Positions 21,175-26,017 of a stretch of DNA of 64,000 nt are shown piece after piece (the stretch's first letter is position 1; every line of letters starts with the position of its first letter). Below the pieces are notes generated by a model, which ran no database searches, had not been told where the DNA came from, and saw nothing but the letters and a program-made list of their open reading frames with translations. The position numbers and the translations under genes are program-made. This DNA is from Saprospiraceae bacterium. GTDB taxonomy: Bacteria; Bacteroidota; Bacteroidia; Chitinophagales; Saprospiraceae. The stretch is from NCBI GenBank assembly GCA_020627825.1, contig JAHDGD010000002.1, positions 1 to 64,000 on the forward strand. The letters run 5' to 3'.

Positions 21175-22122
21175 ATGATACGATATTATAATGTTGAAAA
21201 TAGAAAACTAATCGAAGTAGATTCGATTGAACAAGCATGTTGGTTAAATATATCAAGTCCTTTTGATAAAAACGAATTGATTAAGCTTAGTGATAATCAA
21301 GAAATTCCCTTAGATTACCTAACCGATTCATTGGATATTGATGAACGCTCAAGATATGAAAGAGAGGATGAAGTTCGATTAATTGTACTTAATACACCCT
21401 TACTAAATACGGATGAAGAAGGCTATAAGCCGATTTATATAACTGCCCCCATAGGGATTATTTTAACACCAGACCATATTATAACGATTAGTCTCTTAGA
21501 CAATCCAATTATAAATTCATTTCTTGAAAGTAGAATTAAGAATTTCAATCCGCAAGATGACAAGTTATTCGTATTACAGCTGTTTGAACAAAATGTTTAT
21601 GCATACTTAGATTGCTTGAAAAAATTGAATTTAAGAAGAGATTTGATTGAACAAGAACTCTATAATAGCAGTAGAAATTCGCAATTAAGACAATTGCATA
21701 GAATCGAGAAGTCTCTTGTTTATTTTGTGACGGCATTAAGTAGTAATGAACTTCTAAAACTCAAAATCAAAAGGTCGGATTTTTTAAAAATAAAAGACTT
21801 AGAAGAGCATTCTGATTTATTTGAAGACATTATAATTGATAATTCACAAGCATTGGAGATGGCAAATGTGCATACTAATATTTTGAGCAGTACCACAGAA
21901 GTGTTTGCGTCAGTTGTTAGTAATAATCTGAATGAATTTATTCAAAGACTAACCTTGGTAACTATTATTTTGATGGTTCCTACGTTGGTCGCATCTTTTT
22001 ATGGCATGAATGTCAAGTTACCATTTATGAAGAATGAAAATGCTTTCTTTTTTATCGTTTTACTTTCCATTATATTGATTGTTTTCCTTATGTGGTTTTT
22101 CAGAAGAAAAAAGATATTATAA
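21175..22122 (+). CDS. corA: CorA-family divalent cation (Mg2+/Co2+) transporter
   Basis: 315 aa. The large N-terminal cytoplasmic domain (1-250) ends in two membrane helices at about 255-277 (LTLVTIILMVPTLVASFYGMNV) and 288-308. The selectivity signature YGMN lies between them (about residue 275), in the form ASFYGMNVKLPFM, and the protein ends with the basic RRKK tail. Forms a pentameric inner-membrane channel. The length is normal. It lies directly before the DnaA-box region and is probably monocistronic. Confidence 0.93.
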   Translation: MIRYYNVENRKLIEVDSIEQACWLNISSPFDKNELIKLSDNQEIPLDYLTDSLDIDERSRYEREDEVRLIVLNTPLLNTDEEGYKPIYITAPIGIILTPDHIITISLLDNPIINSFLESRIKNFNPQDDKLFVLQLFEQNVYAYLDCLKKLNLRRDLIEQELYNSSRNSQLRQLHRIEKSLVYFVTALSSNELLKLKIKRSDFLKIKDLEEHSDLFEDIIIDNSQALEMANVHTNILSSTTEVFASVVSNNLNEFIQRLTLVTIILMVPTLVASFYGMNVKLPFMKNENAFFFIVLLSIILIVFLMWFFRRKKIL

Positions 22123-22192: not shown

Positions 22193-22276
22193 TTTTCCAC
22201 ATATTTTATAAATATTTATTTTTATAATAATGTGTATAATAACCAGTTATGCATTTTATCCACATATTGTGGATAA
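22193..22276. other. Cluster of four DnaA boxes: candidate replication origin or DnaA-controlled nrd region
   Basis: Within 84 bp lie TTTTCCACA (22193-22201), TGTGTATAA (22231-22239, inverted TTATACACA), TTATCCACA (22256-22264) and TGTGGATAA (22268-22276, inverted). All fit TTWTNCACA; the last two are perfect consensus boxes facing each other 3 bp apart. The DNA between the first and second is nearly pure A+T, like a duplex-unwinding element. It lies in the 427-bp gap (22123-22549) before nrdB; the rest of the gap holds the leader hairpins below. In E. coli DnaA boxes control nrdAB, so either reading is possible. No dnaA, dnaN, rpmH or mnmG is nearby. Confidence 0.55.
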
Positions 22277-22374
22277 CTATAATGTGTTTTTACGTGAAAA
22301 AAGTACTTTATTTGTAGTGCGGAATAGGTAAAAACACTTAAGCTAAAGATTCACAAGAGTTTTTCAATTCTATT

Positions 22375-22490
22375 ACTTTCTAATTAAAGAGAAAGTTTAA
22401 AATCTACCGAACAGTATAGGTCATACTCTTCGGTTATTTTATCGCCAATTAAACTTATTACGATTTTTTATATATAACATGAATCGTAAT
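22375..22490 (+). promoter_or_regulatory. Hairpin-rich 5' leader of nrdB-nrdA
   Basis: Three hairpins in a row: ACTTTCT/AGAAAGT (22375-22396); ACCGAA + AGTAT / ATACT + TTCGGT with a C-C mismatch (22406-22434); and ATTACGATT/AATCGTAAT (22457-22490). None has a proper T-run, so they are not plain terminators. They sit 60-175 nt before the nrdB ATG and may form a regulatory leader. No cobalamin-riboswitch signature was seen. Confidence 0.4.
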
Positions 22491-22549
22491 ATGACATTCT
22501 TCTAAAACGAAACAGAGCAAATTATAACTATAAAATTTTAAAGGAAAAA

Positions 22550-23533
22550 ATGAGCAAAGACATTGTAAAAGAACCATTACTTGAAGACAATCCAAATAGA
22601 TTTGTTTTATTCCCCATTGAACATGATGATATTTGGAATTTTTATAAAAAATCTGAAGCTTCTTTTTGGACAGCTGAAGAAATAGATTTACATCAAGATT
22701 TATCTGATTGGGATAAAAAGTTGAATGACAATGAACGACATTTTATAAAGCACGTTTTAGCTTTTTTCGCTGCCAGTGATGGTATTGTAAATGAGAACTT
22801 AGCAGAGAACATGGTAAATGAAGTTCAATACACTGAAGCCAAGTTCTTTTATGGTTTCCAGATCATGATGGAAAACATCCATTCTGAAACATATTCCTTA
22901 TTGATAGATACCTATATTAAAGATGTAACAGAGAAAAATTATCTATTCAATGCAATAGAGAATATGGACTGTGTTAAAAAGAAAGCAGATTGGGCATTAA
23001 GATGGATTGATAATGGATCTTTCATAGAACGTTTAATTGCTTTTGCCGCTGTAGAAGGTATCTTTTTCAGTGGTTCATTTTGTTCTATTTTCTGGTTGAA
23101 GAAAAGAGGACTAATGCCAGGCTTAGCCTTCAGTAATGAATTAATCTCAAGAGATGAAGGTATGCATTGTGATTTTGCTTGTTTGCTGTATAATAGTCAT
23201 ATTGTTAATAAACTAGAAAAAGGCGTAATAACAAAGATTATAACTGACGCTGTTGAAATAGAAAAAGAATTTGTAAGCGACGCATTACCGGTAAGTTTAA
23301 TCGGTATGAATGCTGATTTAATGTGCCAATATATAGAGTTTGTAGCAGATCGTTTACTTGTGCAACTAGGAGAACCTAAAGCCTTTAACGCCGATAATCC
23401 ATTTGATTGGATGGATCTTATTTCTATACAAGGAAAGACAAACTTTTTTGAAAAAAGAGTAGGGGATTATCGTAAGTCTGGCGTTGGAGTTGATAAAGAT
23501 AAACAAGTCTTTACAATGGATGCAGACTTTTAA
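22550..23533 (+). CDS. nrdB: Ribonucleoside-diphosphate reductase small (R2) subunit, class Ia
   Basis: 327 aa. Supplies the tyrosyl radical for reduction of ribonucleotides to deoxyribonucleotides. Diiron ligands are visible: Asp46 ([11 protein letters not shown]), Glu108 and His111 in ENIHSETY, then the second set near [13 protein letters not shown] and [11 protein letters not shown]. The radical Tyr is Tyr115 of ENIHSETY, so it is a standard class Ia, eukaryote-like type. The C-terminal tail TMDADF is the peptide that docks on the large subunit. nrdA follows after 66 bp. Upstream are a DnaA-box cluster and a hairpin-rich leader, consistent with replication-linked control (inference). Confidence 0.96.
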
Positions 23534-23599: not shown

Positions 23600-26017
23600 A
23601 TGCAAGTAATTAAAAGAAATGGTAAGCGTGAAGACGTATCATTTGATAAAATAACAGCTAGAATCAAGAAAATGTGCTATGGTCTTGATCAACTCTATAT
23701 AGATCCTATAGAAATAGCGAAAAAAGTTATACAAGGATTATATGATGGAGTAACAACATCAGAACTTGATAATTTAGCTGCTGAAACAGCAGCTACTATG
23801 GCGACAAACCACCCTGAGTATGCACTTTTAGCTGCTAGAATTGCAGTATCAAATTTACATAAAAACACAAACAAGTCTTTCGGAGAAACAATGGAAGCAT
23901 TGTACAATTATGTAGATCCAAAAACTGGTGATCAAGCTGGTTTAATTAGCCAATCTGCAATAGAAGTTATAAGGAAGCACAAGGATAAAATTGATAGTTC
24001 AATCATTTATGATCGAGATTTCACGTTTGACTTTTTTGGGTTCAAAACACTTGAGCGGTCTTATTTATTAAGAATGGATGGGAAAGTGGTTGAAAGGCCT
24101 CAGCATCTATTAATGCGTGCATCTATAGGTATCCATGGTGAAGATATTGATGCTGCTATTGAAACGTATAATATGATGAGTGAAAAATGGTTCATCCATG
24201 CCACTCCTACTTTATTCAATGCAGCTACACCGAAACCACAACTTAGTTCATGTTTTCTTCTTTCGATGACGGATGATAGTATAAGCGGAATCTTTGAGAC
24301 GCTTAGTAGATGTGCTAAAATCTCTCAATCAGCTGGTGGAATAGGGTTAAGTATTCATAACATACGAGCTACTGGTTCATATATTAAAGGAACAGGAGGA
24401 ACATCCAATGGAATTGTTCCTATGCTCAGAGTATTTAATGATACTGCGAGATATGTTGACCAGGGTGGTGGTAAGAGAAAAGGTGCCTTCGCAGTATATC
24501 TAGAACCGTGGCACGCTGATGTGTATGAATTTCTTGATTTGAGAAAAAACCATGGTAAAGAAGAAATGAGAGCAAGAGATTTATTTTACGCTTTATGGAT
24601 TCCTGATCTTTTCATGGAACGTGTTCAAGCTGGTGGAGAATGGTCTTTATTTGATCCGAATGAAGCACCTGACTTATTTGACTTGTATGGTAAAGAGTTT
24701 GAAGATAAATACCACGAGTATGAAACGCAAGGGAAAGCTCGTAAAACTGTAAAAGCACAAGAATTATGGTTTGCTATTCTAGAAGCACAAATCGAAACAG
24801 GGACTCCTTATATTTTATACAAAGATGCAGCGAATGAAAAATCTAACCAAAAGAACTTAGGTACTATTAGATCTAGTAATTTATGTACTGAAATAATGGA
24901 ATATACATCTCCAGACGAAGTTGCTGTGTGTAATCTTGCAAGTCTTTCGTTACCGAAATTTGTTAAGAATGGTGCATTTGATTTCCAAAAACTTTATGAA
25001 GTAACTCGTATAGTGACAAGAAATCTAAATAAAGTTATCGATATAAATTACTATCCTGTTCCTGAAGCAGAAAATTCTAATATGAGGCATAGACCCATAG
25101 GTATAGGTGTTCAAGGATTAGCGGATGCTTTTATGTTAATGAGATTTGCTTTTGATTCGGAAGAAGCAAAACAATTAAATAAAGACATATTTGAAACCAT
25201 TTATTTTGGTGCAGTTACTGAATCTGCCGCATTAGCAGAAACTGAAGGCGCTTATCAAACATTTAAAGGCTCACCTGCTAGTAAAGGGATTTTACAATTT
25301 GATATGTGGGGAGTTGAGCCAACAGATAGATGGGATTGGAAAAGTCTTAAAACAAAAGTGAAAAAGAGTGGTATTAGAAATTCGTTATTACTTGCACCAA
25401 TGCCAACAGCATCCACATCGCAAATATTAGGAAACAATGAATGTTTTGAACCGTATACAAGCAACATATATTCTAGAAGAACACTTTCTGGTGAATATAT
25501 AGTGGTTAATAAACACTTATTAAAAGATCTTATCAATTTAGGTTTATGGAATGATGATATGAGACAAGCCCTTATGGCTGCAAATGGAAGTGTTCAAAAT
25601 TTGCCTATTCCTGAAGAATTAAAAGCATTATATAAAACAGTTTGGGAGCTTAGTATGAAAACTGTTATTGATCAAGCTGCTGACAGAGGTGCTTACATAT
25701 GTCAATCACAATCTTTAAACCTTTTTGTTGAAAATCCGGACTTTGGAAAACTATCCTCCATGCATTTTTATGCATGGAAAAAAGGATTAAAAACAGGGAT
25801 GTATTACTTGAGATCTAAGGCCGCTGTAGATCCTATTAAGTTCACATTGAAATCCGAACATCAAACGAAGTTTAGCGATTCGTCAGAAAAAGTTTCTACC
25901 ATTCCGAATCCACCTTCTGGAAATGAAAAAGCAGTACCTCAAAAAATGTCTGCAATTGAAGTGCAAGAAGGACAATCTTGTACTATGGAAGAAGGATGTA
26001 TTATGTGTAGTGGGTAA
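23600..26017 (+). CDS. nrdA: Ribonucleoside-diphosphate reductase large (R1) subunit, class Ia
   Basis: 805 aa. Residues 1-90 form an ATP-cone allosteric domain ([18 protein letters not shown]). The catalytic ten-strand barrel has the active cysteines in [20 protein letters not shown] (Asn, Cys and Glu of the radical site) and [12 protein letters not shown], and the substrate-binding [21 protein letters not shown]. The pair of Tyr residues for radical transfer lies in the same block. The tail [12 protein letters not shown] holds the redox cysteines that accept electrons from thioredoxin or glutaredoxin. The length is normal. Follows nrdB (reverse of the E. coli order) and ends in a terminator. 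Confidence 0.97.

Follow-up and report, generated by a model that had tools for sequence, protein, structure and literature searches.

A predicted operator of paired DnaA boxes upstream of the ribonucleotide reductase genes of Saprospiraceae

The DnaA-box cluster and its neighbouring genes

The 64,000-nucleotide stretch of DNA analysed here (the window) is part of contig C246 in a Saprospiraceae assembly of 297 contigs and 4.46 Mb. It carries a gene for a corA-type Mg transporter followed by nrdB and nrdA, which encode the two subunits of a class I ribonucleotide reductase (Table 1). The corA-nrdB gene order is common in Saprospiraceae. The best match of nrdB to the reductase beta models had an E value of 1e-52 and fell under their equivalog cut-offs. 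Strict DnaA boxes, defined as TTWTNCACA, are not enriched in the window as a whole (9 matches vs 10.5 expected), and the four at 22193-22276 form its sole cluster. Four boxes per 84 bp have a Poisson probability of ~1.5e-9, or ~1e-6 once all positions are allowed for. The cluster reported in the original prediction, made from the sequence of the window, is therefore present and far beyond chance. Two further features of that prediction were confirmed, namely the inverted boxes with a 3-bp gap (half-sites at 22256 on the plus strand and 22268 on the minus strand, each TTATCCACA on its own strand) and the A+T-rich DNA among the boxes. The predicted set of four was borne out in part. The boxes at 22193, 22256, and 22268 are kept in the other three genus members, whereas the box at 22231 is absent there and is probably incidental. 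The block AGTTATGCATTTTATCCACATATTGTGGATAACTATAATGTG has one variable position across all four genus members and is otherwise identical.

Table 1. Features at the nrdB locus, in window coordinates
Feature	Position	Strand	Basis or remark
corA-type Mg transporter gene	21175..22122	+	ORF; Pfam CorA 187 bits; 3' end adjoins the element
Distal DnaA box TTTTCCACA	22193..22201	+	63 bp upstream of the proximal pair
DnaA box TTATACACA	22231..22239	-	Strict match; in this genome alone of four genus members
Proximal inverted pair TTATCCACA-TAT-TGTGGATAA	22256..22276		Conserved core of the predicted operator
Putative nrdB promoter -7 box (TTTATTTGTA)	22307..22316	+	30 bp past the pair; motif position-conserved in relatives
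Putative nrdB 5' leader, ~230 nt, two hairpins	22321..22549	+	Predicted from the -7 box
nrdB, class I ribonucleotide reductase beta subunit	22550..23533	+	ORF; reductase beta models
nrdA, class I ribonucleotide reductase alpha subunit	23600..26017	+	TIGR02506, 725 bits, above cut-off

TAnnTTTG is a Bacteroidota -7 promoter box known from flavobacteria (PMC9723704), and the putative -7 box of nrdB fits it except for a T at the second base. The fold of the leader expected downstream had a z-score of -1.98. One of its hairpins, at 22406-22434, precedes U-rich RNA, and the other lies at 22456-22491; both recur in genus members and might be an attenuator. No known structured RNA was matched in Rfam within 20-26 kb.

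Conservation and geometry of the operator among relatives

The inverted pair (TTATCCACA-N1-3-TGTGGATAA) was found upstream of nrdB in 52 of 53 Saprospiraceae regions obtained from genome searches and in 0 of 60 regions from other Bacteroidota; it arises in 0.06% of shuffles. A looser figure is 72 of the 78 nrdB upstream regions assigned to the family, a set that includes named contigs assigned partly by rank and title. Because the family sequences are all related, these counts do not represent independent observations. Almost all palindromes that match with 0-1 mismatch lie at reductase loci. By these comparisons, the nrdB boxes are predicted to be a conserved Saprospiraceae operator. The cultured species Lewinella cohaerens (L156) is among those whose nrdB carries it.

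The predicted operator has a defined layout. The gap between half-sites is mostly 3 bp, and 2 or 1 bp in some relatives. In 47 of 71 relatives the proximal pair is preceded at 62-66 bp by a distal half-site, and in 21 relatives a complete second pair, with a gap of 1, starts 64-66 bp upstream. One half of the second pair is left in the genus of the window, at 63 bp; the distal box at 22193 is read here as that remaining half. A TAnnTTTG-like -7 box starts 29/30 bp after the pair in 45 of 72 cases and 40 bp after it in 18, and the two distances differ by one helical turn. The proximal pair is thereby centred ~40 or 50 bp upstream of the -7 box in helical phase, and the second box or pair, at ~64 bp, lies six helical turns further upstream. 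In 9 of the 21 relatives an IHF-type consensus occurs between the pairs (0.2 expected), a sign that the complex may be bent or looped. In the window the corresponding DNA is simply A+T-rich.

The operator was also compared with gene content. In one relative (G031) the order is corA, operator, and nrdJ (class II, TIGR02504 567 bits), nrdJ replacing nrdB; the operator is kept before nrdJ, so the enzyme class would have changed behind a retained operator. Control of corA by the boxes was rejected, since they lie at the 3' end of corA and persist in a genome that has lost it (G067), where the operator stays with nrdB. G029 has lost nrdBA and retains an intact operator next to corA (L110 3568-3652, G029:C120); a SpoIIE-type phosphatase gene follows, and a promoter box was recognized by eye 29 bp past the operator. 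At other loci, nrdJ is preceded by five strict boxes in G021 and two in G024, not arranged as pairs with gaps of 1-3 bp. No more than one box precedes the nrdJ genes besides those of G021, G024, and G031. Of the eight nrdJ genes examined, four lack a strict box, among them L131, with just 57 bp of upstream sequence. A second copy of the twin operator is present in one genome (L112 3398-3483, G004:C40), followed near the contig end by the apparent start of a transposase gene.

In Crocinitomicaceae and Bacteroidota related to them (L171, L185, L194, L198, L208, L212, and others), another conserved array was seen before nrdB, at a distance of ~300 to 150 bp. It consists of TGTGAATATCTTT and TGTTGATAA, then, ~49 bp on, TGTTAATAAC and TGTGAATTTCTTT. 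Across the complete non-Saprospiraceae set, the motif TTWTNAACA is over-represented (88 vs 16 expected). The array may be a direct-repeat relative of the Saprospiraceae element that also controls the reductase.

Candidate readers of the operator and the position of oriC

Beside an origin, the original prediction had allowed that the boxes regulate the reductase, as DnaA boxes do in E. coli. That alternative is well supported as far as a reductase operator is concerned, and reasonably supported as regards binding by DnaA. The boxes are conserved upstream of the operon and placed for action at the promoter, at a fixed 29/30 or 40 bp from the putative -7 box. In each of the 10 genomes checked, no protein other than DnaA has a DnaA-type DNA-binding domain. 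Also favouring DnaA are the exact match to its box, the variable half-site gap, the strict boxes without palindromic pairing at some nrdJ genes, the lack of NrdR, and the E. coli precedent. In our assessment the cluster is most likely a DnaA-bound operator of nrdBA. Regulation by NrdR was rejected: TIGR00244 has no match in the genome of the window (96% complete; matches in 9 of 14 control genomes), and no NrdR box was found at 2.1-27.2 kb, nrdB region included, with up to 3 mismatches to the consensus.

The half-sites obey the DnaA consensus fully in the window and partly in relatives, in several of which C at position 4 (19 of 144) and A at position 6 (57 of 144) depart from it while the palindrome is kept. 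Because some half-sites break the consensus, a dedicated dimeric reductase regulator, substituting for NrdR and reading a half-site merely similar to the DnaA box, is possible, and we judge it unlikely. The near-confinement of such palindromes (0-1 mismatch) to reductase loci fits such a protein, as does TTACNAACA, with 29 occurrences at nrdB and none in eight origin regions. C at position 5 is stricter at nrdB than at oriC (150/173 vs 47/75, p = 6e-5), which is also expected of high-affinity DnaA sites. A dedicated dimer is harder to reconcile with a gap varying by up to 2 bp or with the strict boxes in unpaired arrangement upstream of nrdJ in G021 and G024. The commoner variant, TTWTNAACA, is moreover enriched at oriC too (16 vs 3.6 expected).

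It is very improbable that the cluster is a datA-like reservoir that titrates DnaA and only secondarily adjoins nrdB. The high-affinity box sequence, the IHF-like site between pairs in some relatives, and the retention of the element in G029 after loss of nrdBA would suit a reservoir; but the element follows the reductase gene, and titration has no need of a fixed, helically phased promoter distance.

Least probable of all is the headline of the original prediction, a chromosomal origin at 22.2 kb: four boxes (one non-conserved) and A+T-rich DNA in an intergenic gap would fit oriC, but the flanking genes are co-directional, the sign change of GC skew expected there is absent from the contig (+0.039 left, +0.084 right), a larger cluster lies elsewhere in the genome, and the counterparts of that cluster, not the nrdB element, sit at the skew switch in relatives. 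A denser cluster and a skew minimum elsewhere had been named in advance as evidence against an origin; a larger cluster was found in the genome itself and the displaced skew switch in relatives, the genome's own assembly being fragmented.

The larger cluster, C59:8470-8916 (L043 971-1417), has six strict boxes, flanked by genes for a SRAP peptidase and a COX15/CtaA heme A synthase. Two exact TTATCCACA matches within 1 kb occur in this assembly only on C59 and in the window. A genus member, G003, has the identical SRAP/heme A synthase order and six boxes, on a contig whose skew is too noisy to place an origin alone. Two relatives have near-complete chromosomes. One, G153 (a contig of 7.3 Mb), has twelve boxes at 378.4-379.1 kb, flanked by the heme A synthase and SRAP genes. 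Skew, measured in relatives on sampled 20-kb stretches, changes sign there, negative values giving way to positive ones, and the reverse change falls near 4.1 Mb. The other, G088, is a single contig of 7.5 Mb, and its skew goes from -0.056 to +0.049 across a SRAP-linked cluster at 2.349 Mb. Its intact nrdB operator, at 297.5 kb and 2.05 Mb from the switch, shows no skew change. A box doublet at 7.07 Mb in G153 was rejected as an nrdB site, since it falls within an unrelated gene. The dnaA gene is far from the origin in G153 and G088 and on another contig in the genome of the window. COX15 was dropped as a family-wide origin marker because it was found in just 21 of 150 genomes, and SRAP was used instead. 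The SRAP marker is imperfect, with several weak hits lacking nearby boxes; these may be paralogues. Conserved in the genus and matching the skew-switch loci of relatives, C59:8470-8916 is the probable oriC of this genome. The analysis also suggests the place of oriC in Saprospiraceae, between the SRAP and heme A synthase genes and away from dnaA.

Proposed mechanism and comparison with known systems

We infer that DnaA would occupy the box pairs upstream of nrdB and that, in some relatives, an HU/IHF-type protein would bend the DNA between them. DnaA on the pairs would then act on RNA polymerase at the nrdB promoter, by activation, repression, or both, and deoxynucleotide supply would follow the level or nucleotide state of DnaA. 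Lying before reductase genes, the operator therefore probably ties the supply of building blocks to the replication machinery. A broader proposal, to which we give about even credence, is that Saprospiraceae, apparently without NrdR, couple reductase transcription to DnaA (or to another regulator that mimics its site) through a phased, probably looped twin operator that was kept when class I was exchanged for class II. The literature searched contained no account of how deoxynucleotide synthesis is controlled in NrdR-less Bacteroidota, nor of a role of DnaA there. A family-wide operator of precise geometry makes this question testable. If the proposal is true, its occurrence in a distant lineage with a different geometry would suggest that the link between initiator and reductase is a recurrent solution.

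The nrdB element shares its box sequence and A+T-rich intergenic setting with the Saprospiraceae oriC at the SRAP/heme A synthase locus. That oriC has 4-15 strict boxes and, in both chromosomes tested, coincides with the skew switch, whereas the nrdB element is located elsewhere and keeps its pairs in a fixed geometry. NrdR operators of other bacteria are paired palindromic sites upstream of reductase genes. The Saprospiraceae element resembles them in this respect; unlike NrdR systems, the genome of the window has no nrdR gene, and nrdB has no NrdR-box match nearby.

The closest comparison is with DnaA control of ribonucleotide reductase, established in E. coli, where DnaA binds and regulates nrdAB, and also put forward for B. 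subtilis and Caulobacter (PMC8203912). As at the E. coli nrdAB promoter, DnaA boxes lie upstream of a class I reductase operon, near the promoter and apart from oriC. Unlike there, the Saprospiraceae core consists of two inverted boxes separated by 1-3 bp, with a second pair or box ~64 bp upstream, the boxes are phased to a TAnnTTTG promoter and occur at nrdB and some nrdJ genes, and DnaA binding is putative. The element is thus likely to be a DnaA-controlled reductase promoter of novel geometry rather than a new category of control element.
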